Assembly (NCBI GenBank): GCA_029260345.1 | Contig: JAJDDK010000005.1 | Coordinates: 496,001 to 560,000 of the forward strand | Direction of reading: 5' to 3' | From: Phycisphaerales bacterium | GTDB lineage: Bacteria > Planctomycetota > Phycisphaerae > Phycisphaerales > UBA1924 | Length of the DNA: 64,000 nucleotides | Part shown: positions 26,305 to 35,944 of the stretch, piece after piece | Layout: every line of letters begins with the position of its first letter | How positions within the stretch are numbered: position 1 is the stretch's first letter | The notes under the pieces: generated by a model | The model's database searches: none | Seen by the model: the letters and a program-made list of their open reading frames with translations, nothing else | What the model was told of the DNA's origin: nothing | Translations under genes and position numbers: made by a program

Positions 26305-26459
26305 GGCGCTTCATTATTAGGGCAGAGCGTCGTGCGCCAAGGTGAAAATTGGGGAGGTCGTGGGGAAATGGGAAGAAAATGGCGTAGTGCTGGGGAATTT
26401 GCGCGTGGCATGGAAACCGCTTCCTGACGGGCGCGGTTCGGATCAGGGCGCGCACAACT

Positions 26460-26495
26460 GTGGCTCTCTCGCTTCGCGAGCGAACCACGCCACCC
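26460..26495 (+). repeat. 36-bp palindromic repeat, copy 1
   Basis: The unit begins GTGGCTCTCTCGCTTCGCG and ends CGAACCACGCCACCC. It contains a stem-loop (TCGCT/AGCGA inside GTGG/CCAC). A perfect inverted copy is at 27862-27897, and the two bracket the threonine dehydrogenase gene and tRNA-Arg. Confidence 0.85.
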
Positions 26496-26527
26496 TCCTG
26501 TCCTCTGTTTTCCTCCGCGTTCGATTC

Positions 26528-27646
26528 TCAGTCGTTGATGTTCAGAACGACTTTGATCGCTTCGCCGGACTGCATCAGCGAAAATGCTTGGGCGTAGTTC
26601 GACATTGGCATCTGGTGTGTGACCAGTTCGTCGAGGCGCAGCCGGCCGGAGAGCAGTAGCGCCTCCATCTGGTACCACGTCTCGAACATGCGCCGGCCGT
26701 TGATGCCCAAGACCGTCGCGCCCTTGAAGATGACGTGCTTGTTCCAGTCGAAGTCGAATTTCTTTGAGGGCAGGCCGAGCAGCGCGGCTGTGCCGCCATT
26801 GCGCAGGGCGCTGAAGCCATCATTAAATGCGGCAGGCGCGCCGGACATCTCCAGCAGCACGTCCACGCCTTCATCGCGCGTCGCTCGCTTGACTTCATCA
26901 ATCCAGTCATCGCCGCCGCGCGTGTTGAAGGCTTCGTCGGCGCCGATGCGGCGCGCGAGTTGCAAGCGGTCGTTGTTCACATCCGTCACGAAGATGCGCG
27001 ATGCGCCGGCGGCTCGGGCCACGGTCGTCGCCATCAGGCCGATCGTGCCGACGCCGGTGATCAGCACGTTCTTCGCGCTGACGTTCGCGGACATCACCGT
27101 GTGAACGGCGTTGCCGAGCGGGTCCATGATTGCGGCGATGTGATCGGGGATCGCCTCATGCAGCGGCCAGACGTTTTCCTCCGGCATCATGATGTAGTCG
27201 GCGAAGCAGCCGTCGCGATCGACACCGATGATCTGCATGCCGCGGGCGATGTGGGCGTTGCCGGTGCGGGAGTTGTAGTCGCCACCCTTGGCGATGTGCC
27301 CTTCGGCGGAGACGCGCATGCCGCGCTTGATGGTGGTGACGTCTTCGCCGACTTTCTCGACCACGCCGACAAACTCGTGCCCGGTGACGATGCCGACGGG
27401 GATCCGCGACGCGGCCCAGTCGTCCCACTCCCAGATGTGCCGGTCTGTGCCGCACACGCCAGCGGCTCTCACACGGATGAGCACTTCGCGCGGGCCGGGC
27501 TCTCCGCCATTGGGCAGCGGACGATTCGCGTCGAAGTCCAGCCCTTCGGCGGGGCGTGCCTTGACGAGGGCTCGCATGGTTGGGGCGCCGGGGCGCGAGG
27601 ATGTCTGTGGAGTGTCGGTTTGCGTCATGACAGGGGCGTCAACCAT
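26528..27646 (-). CDS. tdh: L-threonine 3-dehydrogenase, zinc-type ADH family
   Basis: This 372-residue MDR enzyme probably oxidises L-threonine to 2-amino-3-ketobutyrate with NAD+. Alignment with E. coli Tdh from memory is close along most of the length. The catalytic zinc site is present (VCGTDRHIW, TGHEFVG, DPLGNAVHT), as are the NAD-binding VGTIGLMATTVA and the C-terminal FKGATVLGINGRRMFETWYQ. The structural-zinc loop, however, reads GHIAKGGDYNSRTGNAHIAR, with Lys, Asp, Ser and Ala where E. coli has four cysteines. The start is uncertain. 27646 has AGGA about ten bases upstream, 27628 and 27577 are alternatives, and homology begins at the latter (MRALVKARP). The frame beyond 27646 overlaps the tRNA-Arg. 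Confidence 0.85.
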   Translation of the reverse strand: MVDAPVMTQTDTPQTSSRPGAPTMRALVKARPAEGLDFDANRPLPNGGEPGPREVLIRVRAAGVCGTDRHIWEWDDWAASRIPVGIVTGHEFVGVVEKVGEDVTTIKRGMRVSAEGHIAKGGDYNSRTGNAHIARGMQIIGVDRDGCFADYIMMPEENVWPLHEAIPDHIAAIMDPLGNAVHTVMSANVSAKNVLITGVGTIGLMATTVARAAGASRIFVTDVNNDRLQLARRIGADEAFNTRGGDDWIDEVKRATRDEGVDVLLEMSGAPAAFNDGFSALRNGGTAALLGLPSKKFDFDWNKHVIFKGATVLGINGRRMFETWYQMEALLLSGRLRLDELVTHQMPMSNYAQAFSLMQSGEAIKVVLNIND

Positions 27647-27760
27647 AGCAGAGGGGTCCTGACGGGGGACGAATCGGGGTTGAAGGGGGCCGCATGGTGG
27701 AAGTGAGGCTGCGCACACGGGGGGAGAAGGCCGTGCCACCGCTTCTCTTTCCATTTCAAA

Positions 27761-27833
27761 CACGCCCGGAGGGACTCGAACCCCCAACCCTCGGTTCCGA
27801 AGACCGATGCTCTATCCATTGAGCTACGGGCGC
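27761..27833 (-). tRNA. tRNA-Arg (anticodon TCG)
   Basis: The minus-strand gene starts GCGCCCGTAGCTCAATGG. Its anticodon arm is TCGGT-CTTCGGA-ACCGA (anticodon TCG, reading CGN), its T arm GGGGGTTCGAGTCCCTC, and its acceptor end CGGGCGT plus G73, so the first acceptor pair is G-U. The length is 73 nt and CCA is not encoded. Confidence 0.92.
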
Positions 27834-27861
27834 AGCACATGCATTGTAGTGCACAAGCGCC

Positions 27862-27897
27862 GGGTGGCGTGGTTCGCTCGCGAAGCGAGAGAGCCAC
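27862..27897 (-). repeat. 36-bp palindromic repeat, copy 2 (inverted)
   Basis: This is the exact reverse complement of 26460-26495, placed about 30 bases upstream of tRNA-Arg on the other side of the dehydrogenase/tRNA segment. Confidence 0.85.
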
Positions 27898-27960: not shown

Positions 27961-27988
27961 GAGACCCCGCGCTTGCGCTTGGGGCTCT
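27961..27988 (-). terminator. Terminator-like palindromic repeat after aroC
   Basis: On the minus strand AGAGCCCC, a GCGCAAGCGC core and GGGGTCTCT form a hairpin directly beyond the aroC stop. The element encodes S-P-K-R-K-R-G in one frame, a peptide I associate with dispersed repeats in planctomycete ORFs (recollection, not searched). There is no long T-run. Confidence 0.5.
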
Positions 27989-27990
27989 GA

Positions 27991-29184
27991 TTATGCAATC
28001 GTTTCAATCGGCGGCTCCAGCGGGAGCGAGCGCGCCAGTTCCAGAAATTCGTCATAGCGCTGGCGCAGTTCCAGCATTGTGTCGCCGCCGAATTTGTCCA
28101 TGACGGCTCGCGCGATCTCGAACGCGACGACGTTCTCGAGCACCACACTCGCGGCGGGCACCGCGCACACATCGCTGCGCTCGTATTGGCTTTGCTCCGC
28201 GTCTTTCGTATTGAGATTGACGCTGGGCAGGCCCTTCATAAGTGTGGAGATCGGCTTCATCGCGGCTCGCACGATGATGGGCTGGCCGTTGGTCATGCCG
28301 CCTTCGAGGCCGCCGGCGTTGTTGCTGTCGCGCACGAAGCCGAGGTTGGGCGAGTCCTGCTGCGCCTTGTCGAAGCGAATCGGGTCATGCACTTCGCTGC
28401 CGTGTTTGTCCGCGACGCGCCGGCCCATGCCGATCTCAACGCTCTTGAACGCCTGAATGCCCATGGTGGCGAATGCGAGCCGCGCATCGAGCTTATCGCG
28501 CCAATCGACGCAGCTTCCGAGACCGATGGGCAGGTTGAAGACGTGCGCTTCGACGAGGCCGCCGACGGTGTCTTTATCGACTTTGGCCGTGCGCACGGCT
28601 GCACGCATGCGTTCCGAAGTGGTTTCATCGGGGCAATAGACATCGCTGGCGTCGCGCTGTCCCTTCATCGCCTGCCAGTTGTCCGCGGTCACTTCGCCTT
28701 CCCACTTGGCCGCGTGGATTGAGCGCACAAAGCCAAACACCTCGATGCCGATTTCGCGCAGCAGACAACGCGCGATAGCGCCGGCGGCAGTGCGAGCCGC
28801 GGTCTCGCGGGCGCTGGCGCGCTCGAGCGTGGCGCGGCAGTCGGTCGTGAGCCACTTCACGCTGCCGGCGAGATCGGCGTGACCGGGTCGCGGGCGATAG
28901 AGCGGCGGCGTGCGCTGCAAGTCATCGAGGCGCGAATCCTTGTTGATGATCTGCACCGTGACGGGCGAAGCAATGGTCTTGCCGAGGCGCACGCCCGAGA
29001 GATATTCCGCGCGGTCGGTTTCGATCTTCATGCGTCCGCCGCGACCGTAGCCGCCCTGACGGCGTTTCAGTTCACCGTTGATGAAGTCATCGTCGAGGGC
29101 GAGGCCCGCGGGCAGACCCTGAATCATGCAGAGCACGGCGGGGCCGTGGGATTCGCCGGCAGTGTGGTAGTCGAGACGGGGCAT
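27991..29184 (-). CDS. aroC: Chorismate synthase
   Basis: This 397-residue FMN-dependent enzyme converts 5-enolpyruvylshikimate-3-phosphate to chorismate, the end of the shikimate pathway. Family signatures are GESHGPAVLCMIQGLPAG at the N-terminus, RPGHADLAGSVKW, ERASARETAARTAAGAIA and RSDVCAVPAASVVLENV. The start at 29184 (MPRLDYHTAGESHG) matches the family N-terminus, and the in-frame extension to 29280 is made from a palindromic intergenic region. Length is in the normal range (about 350-400). Confidence 0.95.
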   Translation of the reverse strand: MPRLDYHTAGESHGPAVLCMIQGLPAGLALDDDFINGELKRRQGGYGRGGRMKIETDRAEYLSGVRLGKTIASPVTVQIINKDSRLDDLQRTPPLYRPRPGHADLAGSVKWLTTDCRATLERASARETAARTAAGAIARCLLREIGIEVFGFVRSIHAAKWEGEVTADNWQAMKGQRDASDVYCPDETTSERMRAAVRTAKVDKDTVGGLVEAHVFNLPIGLGSCVDWRDKLDARLAFATMGIQAFKSVEIGMGRRVADKHGSEVHDPIRFDKAQQDSPNLGFVRDSNNAGGLEGGMTNGQPIIVRAAMKPISTLMKGLPSVNLNTKDAEQSQYERSDVCAVPAASVVLENVVAFEIARAVMDKFGGDTMLELRQRYDEFLELARSLPLEPPIETIA

Positions 29185-29203
29185 GGGGGGAGGATACAGC
29201 AGG

Positions 29204-29279
29204 CACCGGGAGCCAGTGGCCAGGCCCCAGTTGAGAAACAGAGTGTACGAAACTGGGACTGGCGCCTGGCTCCTGGTCA
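29204..29279. repeat. Long imperfect inverted repeat
   Basis: The left arm (29204-29232, ending GGCCCCAGTT) pairs with the right arm (29251-29279, beginning AACTGGGACTGGCG) around an 18-base loop, at about 80% pairing by eye. It lies between divergent genes aroC and the BFD protein. A fragment of the same element (GACCAGGAGCCA) occurs again at 32806. Confidence 0.6.
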
Positions 29280-29289
29280 CTAGGGCCTA

Positions 29290-29308
29290 GGATGCACTCC
29301 GTGCATCC
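29290..29308 (+). promoter_or_regulatory. Stem-loop covering the start codon of the BFD gene
   Basis: GGATGCAC and GTGCATCC form a perfect 8-bp stem with a TCC loop. The ATG at 29292 is inside the 5' arm and the alternative GTG at 29301 begins the 3' arm. Confidence 0.45.
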
Positions 29309-29585
29309 TGAAGACCATGTCTGCATGTGTTATCGCGTGAGCCTGCGGAAGCTCCGCGCGTATATGAAGCGGGAGGACCCCGCCGCGCCGTCGCAGTTGT
29401 CGGAGTGTCTGGGCGCGGGGACCGGCTGCGGCTGGTGCGTGCCGTTTCTGGAGGAGCTGCACCGTCAGCACAAGGCGGGTGAGGACGAGCCGGATATTCC
29501 GGGAGTGGATCCGGCCCAGTATGCGGAACTTCGGACGAGTTATCGGCAGACGGGGAAGCGGCCGGAATCGCCGGAGAACGGCTGA
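29292..29585 (+). CDS. BFD-like [2Fe-2S] protein (bacterioferritin-associated ferredoxin type)
   Basis: This is a 97-residue small iron-sulfur protein. The ligand pattern is C-x-C near the N-terminus (HVCMCYRVS, Cys11 and Cys13), then CLGAGTGCGWC about 30 residues later, followed by an amphipathic helix (VPFLEELHRQHK). This is the BFD/helix-turn-helix [2Fe-2S] fold. It could help mobilise iron from bacterioferritin, but isolated BFD domains also serve other redox roles. The start must lie upstream of Cys11, at ATG 29292 or GTG 29301. Both sit inside a perfect stem-loop (GGATGCAC/GTGCATCC, 29290-29308), which may occlude initiation. Confidence 0.8.
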   Translation: MHSVHPEDHVCMCYRVSLRKLRAYMKREDPAAPSQLSECLGAGTGCGWCVPFLEELHRQHKAGEDEPDIPGVDPAQYAELRTSYRQTGKRPESPENG

Positions 29586-29710
29586 CCGCACAACAGAAAT
29601 GGATTTTTCCGTGAGACATAGACGCGCTTGCCGTTCTAATAGAAGAGGGCGTCAGTCACTGTGCTGGCGAACGAATTCGAGAGCCGTACAGCCTTTCCTT
29701 GGTGATTCCT

Positions 29711-31060
29711 ATGCTTAAATCACTCTGCGTCGTCATCACCTTGACCCTGTTTCCAGCCGCACTTTCTGCGGCATGTCCATTCTCAATTGAGTTCTTGATC
29801 GACGGAAACGATGGTTTCAATACAGGCTTCAACGTGGCGATGGCTGACGGCGTGATGGTCGCAACCGCGCCCTCAGGGCAGGGCAAGGCATTCATATTTG
29901 AGAAGAATATCGAAGGCGAGTGGGAGCAAGCCGCACTGTTCCATGATCCAGGCGGTGAGGGCGCCGAATTCGGCTGGTCGGCGGACACAGATGGCCAACG
30001 GGTCATCATTTCGAAGCCATTGGGTCGCGTTGTTGTGTATGAAAAAGATGCGCAAGACGGAACATGGAATTCTGTTGCCAATTTAGTTTTGCCGATTGAA
30101 CAAGCCGAAGGCGATGACCTGACTTATGCATGGGGCAGCGTTGTCGCCATCGATGGCGACGTGATCGCGATCAATGATCCGTCGCATTTCCCTCAGGCCA
30201 TCGAGATCTTTGAGCGACAGGAAGACGGAACATGGTTGAATTCAGATTCACTCATTGAGCCCGATGGACTTTCAGTTTTTAGCATGCCGGCTTTGGATGT
30301 GCGAGGCGATCGAATTGCCTGGACCGCAAGCCTGTTTCTTGGCGAACCCGAGATTCCCGATCAGGTCTATGTGTTTGAGCGTGATCCAGTGCGCGGATGG
30401 TCGCACACAACAACCATTGTCGACGCTCAGGGAGGTAAATTCGGTCAATCGCTGGCGCTTGGCGATGATGAATTATGGATTGGGTGTCCGTTTGACTCTC
30501 AGGGATTGGAGACTGATGAGCCAATTGGCTCCGTTCAAATTTATGAGCCGCATGAAGATGGTCAATGGGCGCTCATCGATACATTGACGCCGCCACTCAC
30601 ATTCACGGGATTTAGCGGCAATCAGTTCGGCGCTGCTGTGGCCTTTGATGAGCACTTTGCAGTCGTCGGCGCTCCATTTCGTCATAATCGACGTGGTGTT
30701 GCATATATTTATGAGAGGAATGACGGAGGCGCTTGGGAGCAAGTCGCGTTTATGCGTTCGTTTCTTCCGAATTTCTTGAATCGATTCGGCAGGTCCGTTT
30801 CGATCGATGGCGATGAAATTGTCATTGGCGGCCAAGGGGTTCTCGGCGGTGTATCAGTGTTTCCAACGAGCGCACTGCCGTGCTTCGGCGACTTCAATGA
30901 AGACAATGTCATCAACGGCGCTGATGTCGCCATGCTCCTCGCCAACTGGGGGCCGCCGGAGTACATCGAGCCTTCCTGCGGTGACACCAACGACGACAAC
31001 ATTGTCAACGGTGTCGATCTTGCGACCGTGTTGTCCCGCTGGGGCCAGGCCTGCAATTAA
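29711..31060 (+). CDS. Secreted FG-GAP-like propeller protein with dockerin-like C-terminus
   Basis: This 449-residue exported protein has a signal peptide (MLKSLCVVITLTLFPAALSA). Repeats of the form FG..VAIDGD.IVIG.P..G.V.IYE follow, typical of FG-GAP/PQQ-like propellers that lack DxDxDG loops. The C-terminal dockerin-like pair is GDFNEDNVINGADVAMLLANWG and GDTNDDNIVNGVDLATVLSRWG, both with the unusual DN in place of DG. The start is set at the ATG at 29711. TTG 29699 and GTG 29702 are in frame but only lengthen the signal peptide. It was probably secreted by the same route as the other three dockerin-tailed proteins in the window. Confidence 0.82.
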   Translation: MLKSLCVVITLTLFPAALSAACPFSIEFLIDGNDGFNTGFNVAMADGVMVATAPSGQGKAFIFEKNIEGEWEQAALFHDPGGEGAEFGWSADTDGQRVIISKPLGRVVVYEKDAQDGTWNSVANLVLPIEQAEGDDLTYAWGSVVAIDGDVIAINDPSHFPQAIEIFERQEDGTWLNSDSLIEPDGLSVFSMPALDVRGDRIAWTASLFLGEPEIPDQVYVFERDPVRGWSHTTTIVDAQGGKFGQSLALGDDELWIGCPFDSQGLETDEPIGSVQIYEPHEDGQWALIDTLTPPLTFTGFSGNQFGAAVAFDEHFAVVGAPFRHNRRGVAYIYERNDGGAWEQVAFMRSFLPNFLNRFGRSVSIDGDEIVIGGQGVLGGVSVFPTSALPCFGDFNEDNVINGADVAMLLANWGPPEYIEPSCGDTNDDNIVNGVDLATVLSRWGQACN

Positions 31061-31071
31061 CAAATGCAACG

Positions 31072-31095
31072 GTGGCACGGGCGTCTCGCCCGTGC
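31072..31095 (+). repeat. Palindromic repeat family R1, copy A (terminator-like)
   Basis: GGTG precedes a perfect 9-bp hairpin, GCACGGGCG-TCT-CGCCCGTGC (31075-31095), between the converging 29711 gene and glycyl-tRNA synthetase gene. The same unit occurs near 35837, inside gpmI at 54957 and in part at 60260. Confidence 0.75.
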
Positions 31096-31109
31096 GCGCG
31101 GCATTCGTG

Positions 31110-32777
31110 CTACGCCTTCAGCTTCTCTCCCAACCAATCCCCAACCTTGTCCAGCGCGATGCGGTCTTGCTCAAGCGTGTCGCGGTGGCGCACGGTGACG
31201 GTTTGGTCCGTCAGCGTGTCGGAGTCGATGGTGAAGCAATACGGGCAGCCGGCTTCATCCATGCGCGCATAGCGCTTGCCGATGGATTGCTTGGGGTCGA
31301 AGTCCACCATGCCGAAGCGGGAGCGCAGTTCTTTGTGCAGCTTTTCGCCGACTTCGGGCATGCCGTCCTTGTTCACCAGCGGGAACACCGCGGCTTTGAT
31401 CGGCGCGATGCGCGGGTGGAACTTCATGTAGACCTTGCTGGCGCGCTCGGGGTCGGGCGTGAAGGCTTCGCAGAGGAGGGCGAGCACGCCGCGATCGGCG
31501 CCGGCGGAAGGTTCGATGACGTGGGGGAGGTAGCGCTCGTTGCGCTCCTGATCGAAGTACTCGAGCTTGGCGCGGGCGTGTTCGGCGTGTTGTGTGAGGT
31601 CGAAGTTGGAGCGGTCCGCGACGCCTTCGAGTTCGCCGAAGCCCGGCGCGGTGAAGGGGAAGCGGTATTCGATGTCGCTCGTGCCGGCGCCGGTCTTGGC
31701 GTAATGGGCGAGTTCGTCGGTGTCGTGCTCGCGCAGGAGCAGGTTGTCACCGGTGAGGCCGAGGGAGCGCCACCACGCCATGCGCGTGTCGCGCCAGAAG
31801 GTGTACCACTCACGTGTCGTGTCGGGGTGGCAGAAGAATTCGATCTCCATCTGCTCGAACTCGCGCGAGCGGAACGTGAAGTTGCGCGGCGTGACCTCAT
31901 TGCGAAACGCCTTGCCCATCTGCGCGATGCCAAAGGGCATTTTTACTCGCGTCGTGTCGAGGACGTTTTTGTAGTTGATGAAGATGCCCTGCGCGGTTTC
32001 CGGGCGGAGGTAGGCGATATCGTCCTCGGTCGCGGTGGCGCCGAGGTATGTCCTGAACATGAGGTTGAAGGCGCGGGGCGGCGTAAGCGAACCGGCCTTG
32101 TGCGTAAACGGAGACGGAATGCTTGCAAAGGATTGCGCCAGCGCTTCGCCGGTGACGGGCGCAAGGGCGCCGATGAATCGTTGACCATTTTGCTCGAGCG
32201 TCATCGCCGCGAACTCGTCGGAATCAGCGGGGTCCGCAGTCACGGTGAGTTTGAATTGTTTAAAGAGCTTCTTTGAGTTCTGAACGACGAACTCGCGCGC
32301 TTCACCACTGGCGCTGGCGACGCAGCAAAAAAGCGGAATGAAATTTGGATCGCTGCCCGCGCGCTCAAAGATCATTCTGAATTCGTCGGCGGAGCCATCC
32401 GGCGCCGCGTGCAGGAAGAAGCCCCAGAGGTGGTCAGCGCGAAATCGCTGCTTCGTTTCCTTATCGTCCACCATCGGATCGTTGAACCCACCGACGTGGC
32501 CGCTCGCTTCCCACACTTTCGGGTTCTGGATGATGCAAGAGTCGAGGCCGACGATGGAGACGGGCTTGCCATCCGGGCCATCCGGCGGGGTGAGGACGGT
32601 GTCCTGCCACCATGCGTCTTTAAGATTCTTCTTGAGCTGGGCGCCGAGGGGGCCGTAATCCCAGAATCCGTTGACGCCGCCGTAGATCTCGGAGGCTTGG
32701 AAGATGAAGCCCCGGCGCTTGCACAGGGCCATGATCTCGTCCATCGATTTCGCCGCGTTTGTCGTTGCCTCGCTCAT
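31110..32777 (-). CDS. glyQS: Glycyl-tRNA synthetase, dimeric class II type
   Basis: This 555-residue enzyme charges tRNA-Gly. It is the single-chain alpha2 form rather than the alpha2beta2 GlyQ/GlyS form. Signatures are the N-terminal CKRRGFIFQASEIYGGVNGFWDYGPLG, class II motif 2 FRNEVTPRNFTFRSREFEQMEIEFF and motif 3 near PSAGADRGVLALL. The C-terminal anticodon-binding domain (HPRIAPIKAAVFPLVNK) is present. An insertion at about residues 120-210 contains EFVVQNSKKLFKQFKLTVTA and is typical of some dimeric forms. It is probably monocistronic. Confidence 0.93.
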   Translation of the reverse strand: MSEATTNAAKSMDEIMALCKRRGFIFQASEIYGGVNGFWDYGPLGAQLKKNLKDAWWQDTVLTPPDGPDGKPVSIVGLDSCIIQNPKVWEASGHVGGFNDPMVDDKETKQRFRADHLWGFFLHAAPDGSADEFRMIFERAGSDPNFIPLFCCVASASGEAREFVVQNSKKLFKQFKLTVTADPADSDEFAAMTLEQNGQRFIGALAPVTGEALAQSFASIPSPFTHKAGSLTPPRAFNLMFRTYLGATATEDDIAYLRPETAQGIFINYKNVLDTTRVKMPFGIAQMGKAFRNEVTPRNFTFRSREFEQMEIEFFCHPDTTREWYTFWRDTRMAWWRSLGLTGDNLLLREHDTDELAHYAKTGAGTSDIEYRFPFTAPGFGELEGVADRSNFDLTQHAEHARAKLEYFDQERNERYLPHVIEPSAGADRGVLALLCEAFTPDPERASKVYMKFHPRIAPIKAAVFPLVNKDGMPEVGEKLHKELRSRFGMVDFDPKQSIGKRYARMDEAGCPYCFTIDSDTLTDQTVTVRHRDTLEQDRIALDKVGDWLGEKLKA

Positions 32778-35244: not shown

Positions 35245-35343
35245 TTTGTTCGCATGCAGAGGCATCGGGTGGCAATGCCCACGTCTTCGTGGGCATGGTT
35301 GGTCGCCCGGATTTACGGCTGCTGCCGTTCTGTTCGTCCAATG

Positions 35344-35836: not shown

Positions 35837-35866
35837 CACGGGCGGGACGCCCGTGCCACCGGTTTT
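35837..35866 (+). terminator. R1 family repeat acting as terminator of ruvX
   Basis: CACGGGCG-GGA-CGCCCGTG (35837-35855) followed by GCCACCGG and TTTT is the reverse complement of repeat copy A at 31072. It ends 17-50 bases after the ruvX stop. Confidence 0.6.
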
Positions 35867-35944
35867 CGTGTTGAATTGCACTGATTGTGGCCTAGGGCTT
35901 TGCCCTAGACCACGGCGCCGTTGGAATGTTCGTCCAACTAGGAA

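Follow-up and report, generated by a model that had tools for sequence, protein, structure and literature searches.

Repetitive extragenic palindromes (REPs) are described in the literature as hairpins preceded, at a distance of 0-2 nt on the 5' side, by a GTAG or GTGG tetranucleotide (PMC6006769). REPINs are inverted doublets of REPs (PMC3116915), and REP singlets are treated as remnants in the published definitions (PMC6006769, PMC3116915). The repeat family described here, REP-A, resembles these elements (Bertels and Rainey 2011; Di Nocera 2013, GTAG-tagged; Quentin 2018) in its extragenic position, its short hairpin with a bulged stem behind a conserved 5' tag, its tens of copies, its short-spacer inverted doublets and its patchy occurrence in relatives. 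Its tag and hairpin agree with the REP description in PMC6006769 and its doublets with the REPIN arrangement in PMC3116915. Unlike canonical REPs with their GTAG or GTGG tag, REP-A carries the longer tag GGGTG[GC]C, with GTGC in many copies, and its cognate RAYT transposase was not found in the host genome. At the locus from which this study started, two inverted repeats enclose a short segment, as in a composite transposon or an invertible segment; however, REP-A is dispersed, and the enclosed genes, tdh and tRNA-Arg, occur together without repeats in relatives.

The window, a stretch of 64,000 nt, corresponds to positions 496001-560000 of contig C5 in a draft host assembly (3.40 Mb, 8 contigs, 96% completeness). 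Two 36-nt units at 26460-26495 (copy 1, minus strand) and 27862-27897 (copy 2, plus strand) are exact reverse complements with 1,366 nt between them, and when lengthened without gaps to 45 nt the arms are 91% complementary. The 30-nt core, allowing up to 3 mismatches, occurs twice in the window compared to no occurrence in 100 dinucleotide shuffles. The perfect 36-nt inverted repeat is thus confirmed as real and far beyond chance. Each arm contains an imperfect palindrome (single-stranded DNA fold of -10.1 kcal/mol, z -2.95). In both copies the tag GGGTGGC places GTGG 1 nt ahead of the hairpin foot, as in described REPs, and is followed by an imperfect 29-nt hairpin whose stem runs through 7 bp, a 1x1 mismatch and 5 bp to a 3-nt loop, so that the 36-nt unit has the size (about 20-65 nt) and the imperfect or bulged stem of a short-hairpin REP. 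Between the arms lie tdh, encoding L-threonine 3-dehydrogenase (26528-27643, minus strand; NF003808 428.5 bits, cut-off 380; Pfam ADH_zinc_N and ADH_N), whose start codon is provisional, the open frame extending to 27787, and tRNA-Arg(tcg) (27760-27834, minus strand; ARAGORN; Rfam RF00005 68.4 bits). An Rfam scan returned only the tRNA and one sub-threshold chance match. The perfect inverted repeat, the palindrome within each unit and the enclosed metabolic gene and tRNA were therefore all described correctly in the original prediction. Both copies are intergenic. Copy 1 is located downstream of tdh, 32 nt from the stop codon, and copy 2 in the gap between tRNA-Arg and aroC, the gene for chorismate synthase (27991-29280, minus strand; Pfam Chorismate_synt, E 1.5e-107).

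A genome-wide search for the unit, as proposed with the original prediction, was carried out with a 20-nt core and yielded further copies, alike in the tag and in a portion of the hairpin. From 22 aligned copies we built the covariance model R1, which scores copy 1 with 54.4 bits (E 3.5e-12) and copy 2 with 60 bits (E 1.3e-13). At E ≤ 0.01 R1 gave 78 matches in the host genome (best E about 1e-12), 76 of them distinct and the remaining two being palindromes re-read on the opposite strand; these counts hinge on a model made from the better copies of the family. In the consensus of the 22 copies, GGGTG[GC]C precedes a hairpin with stem segments of 7 bp and 5 bp, separated by a conserved 1x1 mismatch, and a loop of 3-5 nt. 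Among these copies 97.7% of the cells pair, compensatory changes are seen in 8 of the 12 hairpin pairs, and 34 compensatory cells were observed compared to 9.4 expected by shuffling. A codon-usage test called none of 30 REP-A copies coding, compared to 54% of random window positions, and with 76 distinct copies the family is both numerous and extragenic, as REPs are. REP-A is a REP family, and the designation as REP-like was borne out by copy number, extragenic position, compensatory changes, REPIN pairs and the same-tag repeats that flank RAYT genes in relatives.

Of the 76 copies, 36 form 18 inward-facing doublets that have their tags on the outside and are spaced by 18-23 nt, which is the arrangement of REPINs. 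The pair in the window faces outward and, at its much larger distance, is not a doublet of this kind. If REPINs are collapsed, 58 units remain, with 14 gaps of no more than 1.4 kb between neighbours compared to 1.3 under uniform placement, a model that ignores the restriction to intergenic DNA. Since so many neighbours are this close, proximity is a property of the REP-A family; a further outward-facing pair, 1,278 bp apart, is present at C5:32233/33552.

A different dispersed palindrome is also present in each of the two gaps. REP-B (ACCGCTTCCTGACGGGCGCGGTTCGG; 26416-26441, plus strand) lies 15 nt away from where the model matches copy 1; with up to 3 mismatches allowed it occurs 44 times in the genome, compared to 0 for a reversed-pattern control. 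REP-C (GACCCCGCGCTTGCGCTTGGGGCTCTGATT; 27963-27992, plus strand; 17 genome copies) shares the gap of copy 2 and abuts the aroC stop codon. The gaps are places where REPs collect, and the enclosed segment needs no explanation as a unit. REP-B is found 31 nt or less from REP-A in five places (window 26416-26441; host C5:34722, C6:62037, C7:240039 and C7:243182), compared to about 0.2 expected, and in four of these five sites it occupies about the position of the REPIN partner, as in mosaic (BIME-like) elements. Other REP-like types, with GGTGGC- or GCC-tagged hairpins, occur in nearby intergenic gaps at 31070-31094, 35268-35290, 35837-35861 and 35884-35920. The hairpin GGTGGCACGGGCGTCTCGCCCGTG (31070 and 35837) was considered as a REP-A relative and rejected, as it belongs to a different hairpin family.

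We are confident that the two arms are independent REP-A singlets in adjacent intergenic gaps, that their opposite orientation is incidental and that the enclosed 1.4 kb do not form a unit. Two features of the copies speak against this explanation: the 36-nt identity and the closeness of the copies would also fit a local duplication, and many other REP-A copies carry GTGC in the tag where the window copies carry GTGG.

The hairpins could instead work at the RNA level, protecting or trimming the tdh and aroC transcripts at their 3' ends, the pair being kept for that role. REPs in Escherichia coli are able to stabilise upstream mRNA, and each copy is situated shortly downstream of a stop codon, that of tdh or that of aroC. 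Nevertheless, we consider such a role unlikely, as the copies are oppositely oriented relative to transcription, the hairpins are not followed by a terminator-like T-run, no terminator-like site was found, and neither copy is conserved in relatives.

Comparison of gene order raises a second alternative. Read with nuoH rightward, the window has the order tdh(-) tRNA(-) aroC(-) glyRS(-) nuoH(+), and the related genomes G047 and G022 have tdh(-) glyRS(+) aroC(+) nuoH(+); L080, also among the relatives, matches G047 and G022 for aroC, glyRS, tRNA-Arg and tdh. The orientation of tdh relative to nuoH is the same in the window, G047 and G022. From this order it follows that the tdh segment is in the shared orientation and that aroC-glyRS was turned over. 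Compared to G047, G022 and L080, the block of aroC, a bfd-like gene and glyRS (27991-32777), with aroC at one end, has been turned around with respect to tdh and nuoH. Copy 2 could have taken part in this inversion (about 27.9-32.8 kb), since the left breakpoint falls into the tRNA-Arg/aroC gap with REP-A and REP-C. At the right breakpoint (32.78-33.89 kb), however, no match to REP-A, REP-B or REP-C was found, intergenic gaps gather REPs and are also where viable breakpoints fall, and the repeat may be younger than the inversion. We regard a part of copy 2 in the inversion as unsupported and quite doubtful.

Homologous recombination between the two copies, which would flip tdh and tRNA-Arg and leave both orientations in the population, is improbable. 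Perfect inverted identity over 36 nt is enough for rare RecA-dependent exchange, but the tdh orientation shared with two related genomes gives no support to the suggestion in the original prediction that such repeats can invert the segment, and nothing marks the window pair as special among the host REP pairs of similar geometry. We give just as little credit to the broader reading that REPs serve as recombination joints in this lineage, with outward-facing REP-A pairs flipping small segments and the same gap providing the aroC-glyRS breakpoint.

The possibility of a composite mobile unit was examined with the tdh loci of related genomes and 80 contigs. In relatives representing two contexts (L080 and L081/L161) tRNA-Arg(tcg) is immediately upstream of tdh, and no REP-A was detected in the fetched DNA around these genes; an R1 scan of 33 tdh-holding loci from relatives gave no match better than E 0.5. 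The segment is therefore not present or absent as a block. Although 36-nt perfect inverted ends enclose 1.4 kb and Y1 transposases exist elsewhere in the host genome, we reject terminal inverted repeats of a mobile unit carrying tdh and tRNA-Arg as highly improbable, because relatives hold both genes as neighbours without repeats, tdh is single-copy in the host (E ≤ 1e-60), REP-A copies are mostly in other arrangements genome-wide, their close spacing is typical of the family, and IS200/IS605-type enzymes are not known to rely on terminal inverted repeats like these; the suggested ends of a miniature mobile unit thus find no support.

How do independent singlets of this family arise? As a single strand, each of the two arms forms a hairpin headed by the 5' tag GGGTGSC, which is the kind of substrate bound and cleaved by RAYT (TnpA-REP, HuH/Y1) transposases. 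REP-A probably spreads as REPINs, inward-facing pairs with outermost tags and a spacer of roughly 20 nt, and the singlets in the window would most likely be leftover REPIN halves. We infer mobilisation by a RAYT, while a REP-A-flanked RAYT was not found in the host. The original prediction had noted no transposase, which holds for the neighbourhood and the window but is limited to them, since the host genome has four Y1-type transposase genes (C5:684056, C2:282052, C6:148574 and C6:51980). REP-A was not found beside any of the four. The search for a RAYT-type transposase that had been suggested was successful for C6:148574, which passes the NCBIfam RAYT cut-off (NF047646, 99.8 bits, cut-off 80). 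On its two sides this RAYT has a perfect inverted repeat of 26 nt, which is distinct from REP-A and has 49 genome copies; that no host RAYT carries REP-A at its flanks also speaks against our explanation. Its flanks (C6:148449-149109, L012) are a perfect inverted GTGTGCCACTGCTCTTGAGCAGTGG hairpin, and several of the 49 copies are in close inverted pairs. REP-C, the 30-nt palindrome also present in the aroC gap, flanks the gene at C2:282052 with two copies. The IS200-like gene at C5:684 kb (L010, 1283-1979) lies between the arms of an inverted repeat of 57 nt that are 91% complementary and made up of two different hairpins, and the gene at C6:51980-52237 (L201) shows weak RAYT similarity (25.7 bits) and 15-nt inverted flanks containing GACGCCGGAGCTGAG and GCGAAGCTCCGGATC.

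The REPtron arrangement, a RAYT (NF047646) flanked by the same REP on both sides, is thus present in the host at C6:148574 with another REP, but is absent at or near the tdh locus and was not found in the host for REP-A. In the relatives G024, G027, G009 and G001, in contrast, RAYT genes have GGGTGCC-tagged hairpins on both sides and encode proteins with 36-44% identity to the C6:148574 RAYT. Because the RAYTs of these relatives carry such hairpins, REP-A most likely belongs to their RAYT class. The enzyme of REP-A itself may have been lost, be missing from the assembly or act in trans.

The REP-A/REPIN population is an ordinary, fresh example of the known REP/REPIN-RAYT systems, and its recognition removes the false lead of a mobile tdh/tRNA unit. 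One genome holds several coexisting REP families, among them the sizeable REP-A without an identified transposase of its own. With this finding the Phycisphaerales, a group little described for such elements, gain a REP/REPIN population with the tag GGGTG[GC]C.
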